Of a DNA stretch of 64,000 nt, positions 34,427 through 42,210 are shown piece after piece. Origin of the DNA: Hyphomicrobiales bacterium (GTDB taxonomy: Bacteria > Pseudomonadota > Alphaproteobacteria > Rhizobiales > Beijerinckiaceae); assembly GCA_027488155.1 (NCBI GenBank), contig JAIYCE010000084.1, forward strand, positions 1 to 64,000, given 5' to 3'. Numbering within the stretch: position 1 is the stretch's first letter; each line of letters begins with the position of its first letter. The notes under the pieces were generated by a model. The model worked only from the letters and a program-made list of their open reading frames with translations. It searched no databases and was not told where the DNA came from. The translations under genes were made by a program, and so were the position numbers.

Positions 34427-34891
34427 CTACATCACCAGCAACGCGGCATCGGCAATGCCGAGTTCATCCAAAAGCCCGATAACAGCCTCGAACCATGCGT
34501 CGGGACTGGCCAAGCGCAGAAGCGCGGCGGCAGCCAGTATGATGAAAATGCGCGAAATCCGACCGGCAGAGCGCCATTGAGTGACGAGCCTCTGGAGTAT
34601 GTTTTGGCGCGCTGGTGTCAGGTTATTGAGCAGCTTTTGTAAAGCCAAGTCCGGGTTACGGTCGGCACCGATGCGGCGTACAACCTGACTCAGTTGTTCT
34701 GTAAATTGTAAGGCATTCTGCGATGCTGGATTATCCGCCAGATAAGCATCGACAAAGTCTTTGTCTGATGCTGAAAGCTGCCGGGTGACATAAAAGGGCA
34801 AGAGTTGCTGAAAACGCTGGGCGTCGTTTTGTGATGCGCTCGGCTCAGACATAGGCTTGGGCCCCACCAACGGCGTTTCTGACGCAGTCAC
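34427..34891 (-). CDS. Putative membrane-anchored anti-sigma factor
   Basis: LLPFYVTRQLSASDKDFVDAYLADNP (zinc-finger-less anti-sigma-like N-terminus), one TM; overlaps the ECF sigma stop. Confidence 0.6.
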   Translation of the reverse strand: MTASETPLVGPKPMSEPSASQNDAQRFQQLLPFYVTRQLSASDKDFVDAYLADNPASQNALQFTEQLSQVVRRIGADRNPDLALQKLLNNLTPARQNILQRLVTQWRSAGRISRIFIILAAAALLRLASPDAWFEAVIGLLDELGIADAALLVM

Positions 34892-35435
34892 TTATTTTGG
34901 CGCGCGCATTAAACAATCGGCTCTTAATGGTGCCGATCGGACATTCAAGCCGTTCTGCCACGCGCTCCATAGGTTCCTCTTCAAACCATGTCCAAAAGAA
35001 TGCCTCCCGATGGGCGACCGGGAGCCGATCGATACAGGCGCGTATGATCTCATCCATTTCGCGACTTTCGAGTTGGCTCAGCACGTTCCAGTCGGGGTCA
35101 GGCAGGCCCTCGAGTTCATCACCATCAATATGCACCATGGCACGGGCCAGCGCGACGTTCTGCTTGCGCATCCAAGTGCCACAGACATTTTTGGCAATGC
35201 CACACAACCAGGTCTTATAGGTGGAACTGGCGTTGTAATGGGCTGATTTGCTGAAGGCTATCATGAAGGTGTCATTGAGAATTTCTTCTGCGGCAGCATC
35301 ATCCCTCACCCGCAGACGGATGAAAGAAAACACCGTAGCCTGATAGTGGCGATATACTATTTCAATGGCTTTATTGTCGCCCGCACCGACTTTGTTCAGC
35401 AAAATCGTCAGTTCATTTTCCGGCAGATCTTTCAT
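34845..35435 (-). CDS. ECF RNA polymerase sigma factor
   Basis: IVYRHYQATVFSFIRLRVRDDAAAEEILNDTFMIAFSKSA...PVAHREAFFWTWFEEEPMERVAERLECPIGTIKSRLFNARAKI. Confidence 0.9.
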   Translation of the reverse strand: MKDLPENELTILLNKVGAGDNKAIEIVYRHYQATVFSFIRLRVRDDAAAEEILNDTFMIAFSKSAHYNASSTYKTWLCGIAKNVCGTWMRKQNVALARAMVHIDGDELEGLPDPDWNVLSQLESREMDEIIRACIDRLPVAHREAFFWTWFEEEPMERVAERLECPIGTIKSRLFNARAKISDCVRNAVGGAQAYV

Positions 35436-36938: not shown

Positions 36939-37496
36939 TCAATCGCCAAGCTGACCCGGCCTCGCGACCTCATGCTCGACCCAGTGCAATTCCCCGCCAA
37001 AATCCTCGCCCGGGTGCACAGCCAATAGCTCAGTCAGCCGATTGCGGGCGCGGTTAACGCGGCTCTTCATCGTCCCAATGGCGCACCCGCAGATCCCGGC
37101 GGCTTCTTCATAAGATAGCCCCGAAGCACCCACCAAAATCAGGGCTTCTCGTTGATCGGGCGGTAATTTCTGAAGTGCCGTCTTAAAATCGAGGAAGTCC
37201 ATATGACCCATCTGGGCCGGGATACTGGCGAGCCGCGCCGCAAATTGCCCTTCCGGGTCGGCAACCTCGCGGCGTCTCTTGCGGTACTCAGAGTAAAATA
37301 TGTTGCGCAAAATGGTGAAGAGCCAGGCCGACATGTTGGACCCTTCGGTAAAGGAATGCAGATTGCTCCAAGCTTTGACCAAGGTTTCTTGAACAAGATC
37401 ATCTGCGCGGTCCATATTGCCGCACAACGACATGGCAAACGCACGCAGACTGGGGATGGCGGCAAGAAGTGCGGACTTGACGTCCTCGGCGCTCAT
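36939..37496 (-). CDS. ecfG: General stress response sigma factor EcfG
   Basis: LCGNMDRADDLVQETLVKAWSNLHSFTEGSNMSAWLFTILRNIFYSEYRKRRREV...LPPDQREALILVGASGLSYEEAAGICGCAIGTMKSRVNRAR; linked to nepR/phyR. Confidence 0.93.
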   Translation of the reverse strand: MSAEDVKSALLAAIPSLRAFAMSLCGNMDRADDLVQETLVKAWSNLHSFTEGSNMSAWLFTILRNIFYSEYRKRRREVADPEGQFAARLASIPAQMGHMDFLDFKTALQKLPPDQREALILVGASGLSYEEAAGICGCAIGTMKSRVNRARNRLTELLAVHPGEDFGGELHWVEHEVARPGQLGD

Positions 37497-37768
37497 GATG
37501 ACGCCTTTGTTGAGGGGTCCTTAGGGTCTTCCGATGCCGGCGCGCCTTTCGCTTCCGGCTTCCCCTGATCGAGCTTTTCCAGCAGATCAAGAAAGCGATC
37601 TGGGACGGGTTGGCTCAGCAGATCATCGTAAACGGCGCGCAACTGCCGCCCGATATGGTCCTGAACCTGCATTTGGATGGAGGCCCCACTCTTTGGAGGA
37701 CGCCGACGGGACCTTCCAGGCGAATCGCCCTTGGCTCCCCGCGCTGGCGTCGTATTGTTCTGGTCCAT
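37493..37768 (-). CDS. nepR: Anti-sigma factor NepR
   Basis: DHIGRQLRAVYDDLLSQPVPDRFLDLLEKLDQG; 4-nt overlap with ecfG. Confidence 0.93.
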   Translation of the reverse strand: MDQNNTTPARGAKGDSPGRSRRRPPKSGASIQMQVQDHIGRQLRAVYDDLLSQPVPDRFLDLLEKLDQGKPEAKGAPASEDPKDPSTKASS

Positions 37769-37953: not shown

Positions 37954-38772
37954 ATGCCATCGGCGTCAGAGAAGATTGCTCCCCACCTGCCCTATCTCCG
38001 CCGGTTTGCGCGTGCCCTCACCGGCACACAAACAGTGGGAGACATCTATGTTCAAGCAGCCCTTGAAGCGCTCATTGCTGAGCCCGACCATCTGACGCGG
38101 GCGCGGGATGTACGCACCGTCCTCTACAAGCTGCTCCTAGGGGTGTGGCGCTCTATGCCCATCCATGCTCAGGCCGATGCCAGCACCACCTCCCCTATCG
38201 AGGTCAGCGCGCGCCGCAATCTTGAGGCTATAACGCCGCGTCCCCGGATTGCGTTCCTCTTGCGCTCGCTGGAAGGTTTTTCGATCGAGCAAATTGCGCA
38301 AACACTCGACTGCTCAGTCGCCGACGCACAGAGCCTGATTGATGCCGCGGGGCGCGAGATCGCCGAACAAATCAAAACAGATGTGCTGATTATCGAAGAC
38401 GAACCTTTTATTGCCCTCGATCTGCAAACGCTTGTGGAAGATCTTGGCCATCGTGTTGTCGACATTGCGCGCACACATGCGGAAGCGATTTCTGCCATCG
38501 AGACCTTTAAGCCCGGCCTCATCCTTGCCGATATTCAACTCGCAGATGGTTCCTCAGGGCTGGAGGCCGTCAACGAAATACTCGCTACGATGGAAGTGCC
38601 GGTGGTTTTCATCACTGCCTATCCCGAACGTTTTCTCACGGGCGACCGACCGGAACCGGCCTTCCTTATCACCAAGCCTTTTCTGATCGAGACAGTGAAA
38701 GCTGTGATCAGCCAAGCCTTATTCTTCGACCGCCGTTCACACCGCTCACACAGGATCGAAATGCAGGCTTGA
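37954..38772 (+). CDS. phyR: PhyR anti-anti-sigma response regulator
   Basis: N-terminal sigma-like domain HLPYLRRFARALTGTQTVGDIYVQAALEAL...; C-terminal receiver DVLIIEDEPFIALDLQTLVEDLGHRVV...LADIQLADGSSG. Confidence 0.95.
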   Translation: MPSASEKIAPHLPYLRRFARALTGTQTVGDIYVQAALEALIAEPDHLTRARDVRTVLYKLLLGVWRSMPIHAQADASTTSPIEVSARRNLEAITPRPRIAFLLRSLEGFSIEQIAQTLDCSVADAQSLIDAAGREIAEQIKTDVLIIEDEPFIALDLQTLVEDLGHRVVDIARTHAEAISAIETFKPGLILADIQLADGSSGLEAVNEILATMEVPVVFITAYPERFLTGDRPEPAFLITKPFLIETVKAVISQALFFDRRSHRSHRIEMQA

Positions 38773-39088
38773 TACTGAAACGCCAGCATCACAGGTCCGA
38801 ATTTCAACAGCGACAAAGCCAATGCCTGGGCAAAACCCAGCGGCAAGATCACAGGCGAGCATCATAGATTTCAAGGTTTTTAGGTCACTAGAGCACAGCG
38901 CCTGTTCTGCACCGCTGATCGCAACACTGGCTTGCGCCATAGGCTGGCCCGATACGCCAACCCATTTCCACTCAGCATGGCGATAGAATTTTTGCGATGG
39001 CCGTACGATCACAGTCACGAGAAGAATCAATTCTCGACAGTCCGACGATCCTGTTTTTTTGAAAACTCTTGATGGCTCATTGGCGTGC

Positions 39089-39246
39089 TCACATGCGGCC
39101 CGTGAGCAGCAGTACAATAACGATGATCAAAACAATAGTCAGAAGACCCGATGGTCCAAACCCCAGCCGCGGCTATAAGGCCAAGTCGGAACTGCCCCAA
39201 CCAAAAGCAGAATTAGAATGATTAATGCGATGGTACCGATCGTCAT
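39089..39246 (-). pseudogene. DUF3309-like small membrane protein with apparent single-base frameshift
   Basis: MTIGTIALIILILLLVGAVPTWPYSRGWG then, in a shifted frame, GPSGLLTIVLIIVIVLLLTGRM*. Confidence 0.7.
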
Positions 39247-39262
39247 AGCTGGTATCCTGACA

Positions 39263-39478
39263 TTAAAGGTTTAAGCCCTGATCGCGGATGAAACGCTCAA
39301 TTTCGGCCGCAGGCTGCATGCGCGTATAGCCATAGCGATGCCGTAAACACTCAATCAGAAACTCACGATTATTCTCAATTCGCTCAAGATCATCGTCTGA
39401 AATGTCGTCCCACTCCATTCGAATTGCACCGCGCATTGCACCCCAGCGAGAACATGTTTCTTCGCTTTGCATCGCCAT
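39263..39478 (-). CDS. CsbD-like general stress protein
   Basis: SRWGAMRGAIRMEWDDISDDDLERIENNREFLIECLRHRYGYTRMQPAAEIERFI. Confidence 0.7.
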   Translation of the reverse strand: MAMQSEETCSRWGAMRGAIRMEWDDISDDDLERIENNREFLIECLRHRYGYTRMQPAAEIERFIRDQGLNL

Positions 39479-39507: not shown

Positions 39508-39533
39508 AACGCGCGCCGCTAAGTACAGGTTCC
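39508..39533 (-). promoter_or_regulatory. EcfG-type promoter of the csbD-like gene
   Basis: Minus: GGAAC-N17-CGTT, ~30 nt upstream of the start. Confidence 0.85.
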
Positions 39534-39541
39534 TCTAAACG

Positions 39542-39575
39542 AAAAGACCCGCAACGACCTTAATCGTTGCGGGTC
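39542..39575 (-). terminator. Intrinsic terminator of the candidate sRNA
   Basis: Perfect 12-bp stem GACCCGCAACGA/TCGTTGCGGGTC, 6-nt loop, then TTTT on the minus strand; no T-tract on plus. Confidence 0.88.
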
Positions 39576-39632
39576 CATGGACGGTTAGAGGCGTGGGAGG
39601 GGGCTCAAACATCCACAACCGCGCATTGCAAT
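39542..39632 (-). ncRNA. Candidate EcfG-dependent small RNA (~90 nt), GsrN-like
   Basis: EcfG promoter at 39638-39663 (minus); no ORF; C-rich segment GAGCCCCCTCCCACGCC; ends in GACCCGCAACGA-TTAAGG-TCGTTGCGGGTC-TTTT. Confidence 0.75.
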
Positions 39633-39637
39633 GTTTC

Positions 39638-39663
39638 AACGTGCAAAAAGCCCGGGAAGTTCC
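39638..39663 (-). promoter_or_regulatory. EcfG-type promoter of the candidate sRNA
   Basis: Minus: GGAAC-TTCCCGGGCTTTTTGCA-CGTT (N17). Confidence 0.87.
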
Positions 39664-39695: not shown

Positions 39696-39720
39696 GGAAC
39701 TGCTGTCAGAGCATCGCGTT
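39696..39720 (+). promoter_or_regulatory. EcfG-type promoter of the PRC-barrel gene
   Basis: GGAAC-TGCTGTCAGAGCATCG-CGTT (N16). Confidence 0.85.
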
Positions 39721-39756: not shown

Positions 39757-40182
39757 ATGGCTAATTCCTACAATGCATCCGGTAGCGGTTCGGGTATCGA
39801 GCGCGCTGTCAATCTGGAAAATCGTGAAACCGAGCGATTGATAGGCAGCGACAAGGTCGAAGGGACCAATGTTGTGCGGCCAAATGGCGAAACGATCGGC
39901 GAGATTGAACGCGTCATGATCGACAAGCGCTCAGGCCAAGTCGCTTACGCTGTCATGAGTTTTGGCGGATTTCTCGGTATAGGTGAAGACTATTTTCCCT
40001 TGCCTTGGAGCATGTTGACCTACGATGAGAATCTCGATGGCTACGTTGTCGATCTCACCGAAGCGCAATTAAGCGGAGCACCCAAAATTCATGAAACGGA
40101 CAATGACAAAAAATGGGCAGACCGAAAATGGGGGCGTAGCGTGCATGATTATTATGGAGCTCAACCTTATTGGGGAATGTAA
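39757..40182 (+). CDS. PRC-barrel domain protein
   Basis: RLIGSDKVEGTNVVRPNGETIGEIERVMIDKRSGQVAYAVMSFGGFLGIGEDYFPLPWSMLTYDENLDGYVVDLT. Confidence 0.93.
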   Translation: MANSYNASGSGSGIERAVNLENRETERLIGSDKVEGTNVVRPNGETIGEIERVMIDKRSGQVAYAVMSFGGFLGIGEDYFPLPWSMLTYDENLDGYVVDLTEAQLSGAPKIHETDNDKKWADRKWGRSVHDYYGAQPYWGM

Positions 40183-40301: not shown

Positions 40302-40589
40302 TTATTGGCTCGGCTGCCCCTCATCACGCCGCGTCCGGCTGCCATGCGAAGCCTCGCCCCCTTTACGTCCAGCTGCAGCTGCCAGTTCATGGTTGCGCGA
40401 GAAGCTGCGATCCTGTGGAGCCACGCTCTGCCCACCCTTTCGTCCAGCGGCCGCAGCCAATTCATGATTGCGCGAAAAACTGCGCTTATGATGCGGTACG
40501 CTTTCACCGCCCTTGCGAGCAATTGCGCGCTGCTTTTCCGGATCCATCGCAGCAAAGCCACGATTCGACTTTTTCGGCTGGTCCACCAT
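40302..40589 (-). CDS. KGG-motif stress protein (YciG-like)
   Basis: MVDQPKKSNRGFAAMDPEKQRAIARKGGESV...SFSRNHELAAAAGRKGGQSV...SFSRNHELAAAAGRKGG; internal duplication. Confidence 0.85.
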   Translation of the reverse strand: MVDQPKKSNRGFAAMDPEKQRAIARKGGESVPHHKRSFSRNHELAAAAGRKGGQSVAPQDRSFSRNHELAAAAGRKGGEASHGSRTRRDEGQPSQ

Positions 40590-40621: not shown

Positions 40622-40646
40622 AACGTCAGCGACACCATGCAGTTCC
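40622..40646 (-). promoter_or_regulatory. EcfG-type promoter of the KGG gene
   Basis: Minus: GGAAC-TGCATGGTGTCGCTGA-CGTT (N16). Confidence 0.87.
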
Positions 40647-41107: not shown

Positions 41108-41133
41108 GGAACTTGCCTGCGGGTACATGCGTT
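41108..41133 (+). promoter_or_regulatory. EcfG-type promoter of the GSR-linked histidine kinase
   Basis: GGAAC-TTGCCTGCGGGTACATG-CGTT (N17), ~34 nt before ATG 41167. Confidence 0.85.
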
Positions 41134-41166
41134 AATTGCCCACTGAGTCTGGCCGAAGGGGCCGAA

Positions 41167-42210
41167 ATGCTTATTTCCGTAAATAGTGCAAAACGCGCCT
41201 TGGAAGAAACGCAACGGCGTGTTGATGATCCTTTAAAGTGGGCTGCGGCCTTCACGGAGCATCTTCCGATCCCTATTTTCGAGCTCAGTACAGCTGGCCA
41301 ACTTATCTATGCGAACGCTGAATGGCGCGCATTTTCTGGCTGTGCGCCAGATGCGCTCAGCGTCATACTTCATCCTGATGATCATTTGGCTTATTGCGAA
41401 GCACTTTCAAACACTTTAACGCAGGGCGCTGCATTTCGTTTGACTATTCGGAAAATGCGGCATGACGGCGTATGGCGAAAAATTCGAGACGATGTACGGC
41501 CTCTTGTACACGATGGAAGGATTGCGGGCTTTGCTGGCTGTTCGACCGATGTCACCGAAGAGATAGAAACGCGCGAAACGGCATTCAAGCTAGGCGCAGA
41601 AATCCAATCCGCCTTTCGTCAACGCGATGTACTGACAACTGAAGTGCATCATCGTGTGAAGAACAATCTACAAGCAATACTCAGCATGATCGGCTTACAT
41701 GCCCGACGCATCACGTCGGAAGAAGCGGGACACGATCTCGGCATCGTGGTGCGGCGTATCCATGCCATGGCCACAATCCAGCAGGAATTGCATGATGATA
41801 CAGATGTTTCCCGGATCGATCTTCTGATGTATGTGCGGCGTGTAGTGGAGGCGCTTTCAAGGCTTCACGATCGTGCTGATGTACGTGTTCAAGTGAACGG
41901 CGATTGGGCCGATGTAAGCATCAGCACGGCAGCTGCGGTCGGAGCCATTCTTGCCGAGCTGATTGCGAATTGCTTCGACCATGGCGTGCGTGATGGCGAA
42001 GGGGAAGTTGTCGTTTCCATGCGGCGTGAAGGTGGGCGCGCTGTGCTCGACTTGGTCGATAGCGGGCCGGGTTATACACCCGCGATTGCGCGCAAAGATG
42101 GAATCGGATTGTTCGTCGTCGAACGGATTGCGCGCCATAGCCGCATCGGCTTGCTGCGCGGAGAAGGCCCTGGAATGCCGTGGCGGCTAACGGCTCCACT
42201 TCAGGAATAG
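41167..42210 (+). CDS. PAS-domain HisKA_2/HWE-type sensor histidine kinase (PhyK-like candidate)
   Basis: PIFELSTAGQLIYANAEWRAFSGC PAS; EVHHRVKNNLQAILSMIGLHARR; ATPase domain LIANCFDHG...DSGPGYTP...GIGLFVVERI. Confidence 0.88.
   Translation: MLISVNSAKRALEETQRRVDDPLKWAAAFTEHLPIPIFELSTAGQLIYANAEWRAFSGCAPDALSVILHPDDHLAYCEALSNTLTQGAAFRLTIRKMRHDGVWRKIRDDVRPLVHDGRIAGFAGCSTDVTEEIETRETAFKLGAEIQSAFRQRDVLTTEVHHRVKNNLQAILSMIGLHARRITSEEAGHDLGIVVRRIHAMATIQQELHDDTDVSRIDLLMYVRRVVEALSRLHDRADVRVQVNGDWADVSISTAAAVGAILAELIANCFDHGVRDGEGEVVVSMRREGGRAVLDLVDSGPGYTPAIARKDGIGLFVVERIARHSRIGLLRGEGPGMPWRLTAPLQE

Follow-up and report, generated by a model that had tools for sequence, protein, structure and literature searches.

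The minus strand at positions 39542-39632 of the window, the whole analyzed stretch of 64,000 nt, likely contains the gene for a trans-acting small RNA (sRNA) of the general stress response (GSR), which would act by the mechanism proposed below. The promoter, terminator, fold, homologues, locus statistics, covariation and synteny of this gene, taken together, point to a conserved, putatively EcfG-controlled sRNA rather than to a lone look-alike. Hence, conservation, synteny and covariation lend strong support to the original prediction, an EcfG-controlled sRNA that targets through a C-rich region.

Promoter and genomic context

To describe the surroundings of the sRNA, the features of the locus are given in the order of their coordinates.

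36939-37496, minus strand: ecfG sigma factor gene (Sigma70_r2 and Sigma70_r4_2 domains)
37493-37768, minus strand: nepR (PF18557)
37954-38772, plus strand: phyR (PhyR_sigma2, PhyR_sigma-like and Response_reg domains); the sRNA gene is located on its 3′ side, in convergent orientation
39266-39478, minus strand: 71-codon gene, an open reading frame, the next gene downstream of the sRNA
39508-39533, minus strand: own EcfG promoter of the 71-codon gene, from the EcfG site scan
39542-39632, minus strand: predicted sRNA gene of about 91 nt, supported by fold, homologues and covariation, with the start placed 6 nt past the −10 element
39546-39575, minus strand: intrinsic terminator hairpin with a 12-bp stem showing compensatory changes, followed by TTTT at 39542-39545
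39594-39606, minus strand: C-rich core GAGCCCCCTCCCA of 13 nt, part of the 5′ hairpin and unchanged across four genomes from two genera
39638-39663, minus strand: EcfG-type sRNA promoter GGAAC-N17-CGTT, an exact match, kept in G006, G071 and G105
39696-39720, plus strand: EcfG promoter of the PRC-barrel gene, divergent from the sRNA promoter at a distance of 33 bp; the divergent pair is also present in G006
39757-40182, plus strand: PRC-barrel gene, the divergent neighbor of the sRNA (PF05239, E 3.5e-13)
40302-40589, minus strand: KGG stress protein gene (PF10685) with its own EcfG promoter at 40622-40646, minus strand
41113-42210, plus strand: HisKA_2/HWE-type sensor kinase gene, from a domain match, with an EcfG site at 41108-41133, plus strand

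The presence of ecfG, nepR, phyR and the PRC-barrel, KGG and HisKA_2/HWE kinase genes identifies this region as a GSR locus. The sRNA gene is located 894 bp beyond phyR, and thus is close to ecfG, nepR and phyR, as expected for a GsrN-type RNA. A second ECF-type sigma factor gene is located near the locus, at 34848-35435 on the minus strand of the window.

The sequence of the sRNA promoter is GGAACTTCCCGGGCTTTTTGCACGTT, which confirms the exact motif with a spacer of 17 that had been predicted at this place, and the published consensus for EcfG in Methylobacterium is GAAC-N16,17-C/GGTT (PMC4814048). Sites of this type, with spacers of 16-18, were found nine times in the window, where 1.54 were expected and none of 100 shuffled sequences reached nine; the whole genome contains 37 such sites including these nine. 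On the basis of this motif the transcription of the sRNA is predicted to depend on EcfG.

Structure of the transcript

The terminator has the form GACCCGCAACGA-TTAAGG-TCGTTGCGGGTC, and inspection of the sequence bore out the predicted GC-rich 12-bp stem, 6-nt loop and TTTT, with a T-tract in the minus direction only. A scan for terminators alone in the 1.3-kb region found three, against 1.7 expected, which is not significant; it is conservation, rather than the terminator scan, that carries the case for the sRNA. The minimum free energy (MFE) of the segment 39542-39632 was −40.9 kcal/mol, compared with −25.0 ± 3.4 kcal/mol for shuffled sequences (z −4.7), and none of 200 shuffles was as low; the fold z-score for 39543-39631 was −5.5. 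The outer CGGTT/AACCG helix of the previously proposed 5′ hairpin was present both in the MFE structure and in the consensus of four species, while the full exposure of the GAGCCCCCTC loop was not upheld, as in both structures a GAG/CUC helix closes a CCCC tetraloop, so that the C-rich core is partly closed. The GTGG/CCAC helix is an alternative pairing in this hairpin.

The RNAs of the alpha-r14/cuckoo type have C/U-rich hairpin loops, which are able to pair with Shine-Dalgarno regions and contain a CCUCCUCCC motif. The sRNA of the window resembles them in having such loops, and differs from them in its EcfG promoter, its place in the GSR locus and its core, which reads GAGCCCCCUCCCA; the transcript has no CCUCCUCCC motif. 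The Rfam 15 covariance models, including that of alpha-r14, gave no match to it at the gathering threshold and nothing credible at E ≤ 10.

Conservation in close relatives

When 60 relatives were searched with blastn, one other genome matched, from the transcript start through the terminator, and a search with the core pattern added two further genomes with homologues. These three metagenome-assembled genomes (MAGs) of another genus, G006, G071 and G105, all keep the promoter, the core GAGCCCCCTCCCA, the terminator and the position in the GSR locus. The comparison of the four sequences showed that 19 of 21 columns around the core were invariant, against none in the promoter spacer, and that the stems also diverge between the window and the homologues. 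Hence, the 5′ C-rich segment is the best conserved part of the RNA, as in GsrN-type RNAs, even though the MFE structure closes part of it by GAG/CUC, and the 3′ end is formed by an intrinsic terminator. Promoter, loop and terminator, on whose conservation in related genomes the original prediction had been staked, were thus all conserved. When named genomes were scanned for the promoter together with the core, the matches were three MAGs from ponds, labelled Hyphomicrobiales, and two unrelated genomes, which probably matched by chance. The plasmid collection contained no DNA match to the window.

Six GAGCCCCCTCCC-like matches in G151 were rejected as homologues of the sRNA. They are dispersed palindromic repeats (L014, L018-L022) containing GATGTTCGAGCCCCCTCCC or sequences close to it, and in pattern searches they imitate the core.

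The distribution of the RNA is uneven. G001, which is of the same genus as the window genome, has phyR and neither the RNA nor the PRC gene, which indicates that some close relatives can do without the RNA. In G002 a search for phyR at E ≤ 1e-50 gave no match. These two observations suggest that the module was lost, or never gained, in some close relatives.

The conserved segment could also be read as a micropeptide gene, because an ATG in the core opens a frame with the MFEPPP or MLEPPP start in the window and in G006, G071 and G105. This frame has no Shine-Dalgarno sequence and reads through the terminator stem, its length and C terminus differ among the homologues, and the ATG is missing in other genera, for example in G033 and G244, which have AACGCCCCCTC. 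As the covariation of the helices also points to an RNA, a micropeptide is very improbable.

A wider class of C-rich RNAs in GSR loci

To place the sRNA in a broader context, 42 GSR loci (637 kb) were surveyed, with permuted promoters as the control. The loci contained 182 exact EcfG promoters, compared with a mean of 24 permuted ones. A terminator followed within about 130 nt after 15 of these promoters (8.2%), against 1.4% after permuted promoters, and a C-rich stretch together with a terminator after 11 (6.0%), against 2 of 1889 permuted ones (0.1%), which makes the combination about 57 times more common. The p-value of 1e-10 for this difference is indicative only, because the definition of the C-rich stretch postdates seeing the examples and because the loci are related. 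The predicted structures from many genera have a common plan, in which a 5′ hairpin with a C-run in or near the loop is followed by a terminator. In an alignment of 13 sequences, 14 of 19 base pairs showed compensatory changes, five of six in the 5′ helix and nine of 13 in the terminator, and 92.5% of cells were paired, compared with 38-45% when the pairing was slid. An alignment of the short RNAs of genera g11 and g32 (A3) gave no useful consensus, and was probably misaligned by MAFFT.

A covariance model built from the 13-sequence alignment matched G109 (E 2e-13; genus in the training set), with an EcfG promoter and a C-rich segment, and G035 (E 7e-5; genus outside the training set), with an EcfG promoter and a C5 loop. 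Most order-wide matches of the model were rejected, being plain GACCCGC...GCGGGTC terminators; outside the bacterial family only two plausible matches, G050 and G440, had both the promoter and a C-rich loop.

The promoter followed by CCCCCTC was by itself a poor classifier, with 46 matches family-wide against about 31 for the reversed-pattern control. This modest excess speaks for a stray promoter match beside an unrelated terminator. Such a coincidence is nevertheless extremely improbable here, since the conservation covers promoter, core, terminator, position and covariation at once.

In genus g11, four genomes contained 6, 4, 3 and 2 matches to the pattern of an EcfG-driven C-rich RNA, one of which was not a clear RNA, while the control gave none. 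Most of the matches in G012 and G076 were outside the GSR locus, and these two genomes have several dispersed EcfG-driven RNAs of about 70 nt each, with the core GGAATGCCCCCTCC (L098-L105). In genus g5 the GSR locus contains a second RNA with an EcfG promoter and a terminator, and with a conserved CACACGTCCTCAGGCTGGAACTTG near its start (L003:4929, plus strand; L081:2665, plus strand).

Position 3′ of phyR

In 18 of the 19 tabulated loci, including those of Methylobacterium bullatum and Sinorhizobium meliloti, the RNA and phyR are convergent, with the RNA located about 150-2000 bp beyond the 3′ end of phyR. RNAs of this kind thus occur at the corresponding place in many relatives of this bacterium, which makes it very likely that the sRNA really is a GsrN-like helper in the stress response. 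G010, from the family group of the window, is about 92-93% identical to M. bullatum over 12 kb, and therefore the family of the window is the one which holds Methylobacterium. A diverged C-rich RNA with CCTGGTCCTCCCC...CATTCCCCTTG is found 3′ of phyR in Methylobacterium and two other genera (L251:7016, L054:8584, L057:8978 and L058:8808, all on the minus strand). The S. meliloti RNA (L250), which was found by eye, has a fold z-score of −5.7. It resembles the sRNA of the window in place, direction, C-rich loops and terminator, while it differs in having two C-rich hairpins, a length of about 130 nt and a −10 element with one mismatch (CATT); it may be an RNA for which homology to GsrN was already predicted (PMC5869019).

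Genes for DUF3309 and YqjD-like proteins are often found between the RNA and phyR. Because the RNA points towards such small genes, which often come after it, it could be their leader or attenuator, acting on the 71-codon gene or a DUF3309-like gene, rather than an independent transcript. The claim that no open reading frame lies downstream was correct for the RNA itself; the next gene does follow, but it has its own EcfG promoter beyond the terminator, both in the window and in G006. Additionally, in G029 the 3′ end of phyR comes directly after the RNA. Hence, a leader function is improbable, and an independent sRNA is the preferred reading. The DUF3309-like small gene of the window (39084-39247, minus strand) has an apparent one-base frameshift in comparison with the intact copy in G006, which could be either a mutation or an assembly error.

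Candidate targets

The pairing of the sRNA with katG was rejected, as the 120 nt upstream of katG contained no G-tract in G000 (the window genome), G006 or G071. However, katG is one known target of GsrN and not a strictly defining feature outside Caulobacter. The start regions of the GSR-locus genes were also rejected as targets, since none formed a significant duplex and the best of them, the PRC gene, had a z-score of −1.5. The leader of a cold-shock gene contains GGGAGGGGGC 29 nt before the ATG, but a similar tract in G001, which has no RNA, and the lack of a clear counterpart in g5 genomes leave this target unsupported.

The leader of an RTX-repeat protein gene (L213:752-783, on contig C74 of G000) contains TGGGAGGGGGCTC, a perfect 13-nt complement of the core, located 22 nt before the ATG. 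The pairing would reach a strand predicted to mask the ribosome site, and the complement could be due to chance.

The lack of targets in the katG, GSR-gene and cold-shock checks, together with the several copies per genome in genus g11, speaks for a decoy or sponge that titrates Hfq or another sRNA. On the other hand, an invariant 13-nt sequence exceeds the needs of a generic binder, and GsrN, the closest model, pairs with mRNAs, using a G-tract in the katG leader (PMC5869019). Hence, a sponge is unlikely, and the regulation of mRNAs is preferred. The hfq gene is present in G000 and in the genomes with homologues. The sRNA would probably use Hfq, and its C-rich core is predicted to pair with G-rich leaders of mRNA targets.

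Relation to known sRNAs and proposed role

GsrN-like RNAs have been proposed in Caulobacteraceae, Rhizobiaceae, Brucella and two relatives of Bradyrhizobium, partly by position and promoter alone, and the published BLASTn matches of GsrN were confined to Caulobacteraceae (PMC5869019). GsrN of Caulobacter crescentus and its proposed homologues have in common with the sRNA of the window a SigT/EcfG-type promoter, a C-rich 5′ loop as the best conserved part and a 3′ terminator, and the genes of this group usually adjoin ecfG-nepR-phyR (PMC5869019), which are also near the sRNA of the window. The absence of a G-tract from the katG leader sets the two apart; the likeness lies in architecture, predicted regulation and locus. 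The 88-nt ReC64 RNA of Rhizobium etli has an EcfG consensus promoter and is located in the ecfG-phyR region, downstream of the phyR-tcrY locus; its dependence on EcfG was demonstrated by 5′ RACE and reporter fusions (PMC3892343). It is likened to the sRNA of the window by its size of about 88 nt, its EcfG promoter and its place in the phyR region. These comparisons suggest that locus and plan probably link the sRNA to the GsrN/ReC64 group, and that it most plausibly works like Caulobacter GsrN. The original reading of it as a GsrN-like RNA is thus retained for architecture, predicted regulation and locus, but not for katG pairing.

In the proposed mechanism, stress would activate PhyR, and NepR would then release EcfG. 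RNA polymerase with EcfG would start at GGAAC-N17-CGTT and produce an RNA of about 90 nt ending at the terminator, alongside the transcripts of the other GSR genes, among them the divergent PRC-barrel gene. The 5′ hairpin would present the C-rich segment GAGCCCCCUCCCA, which could base-pair, probably with Hfq, with G-rich leaders or sequences resembling ribosome sites in mRNAs, and this pairing would turn the translation of the targets up or down.

These data add statistical, syntenic and covariation support to the idea of GsrN-like RNAs in the family that contains Methylobacterium, while the multicopy set in genus g11 and the Methylobacterium member go beyond what has been published. Direct tests are now possible with the coordinates and the invariant core. 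In Methylobacterium the protein-level control of an EcfG paralogue was attributed to "possibly a small RNA", and no such RNA was named (PMC4814048). We tentatively suggest that a C-rich EcfG-driven sRNA, convergent with and 3′ of phyR, may belong to the core of the alphaproteobacterial GSR locus as an ancestral fourth component, in addition to ecfG, nepR and phyR; its sequence would drift beyond the range of BLAST while its architecture and place persist, with an expansion to several copies per genome in genus g11, and in Methylobacterium it could underlie the unexplained protein-level control of EcfG2.
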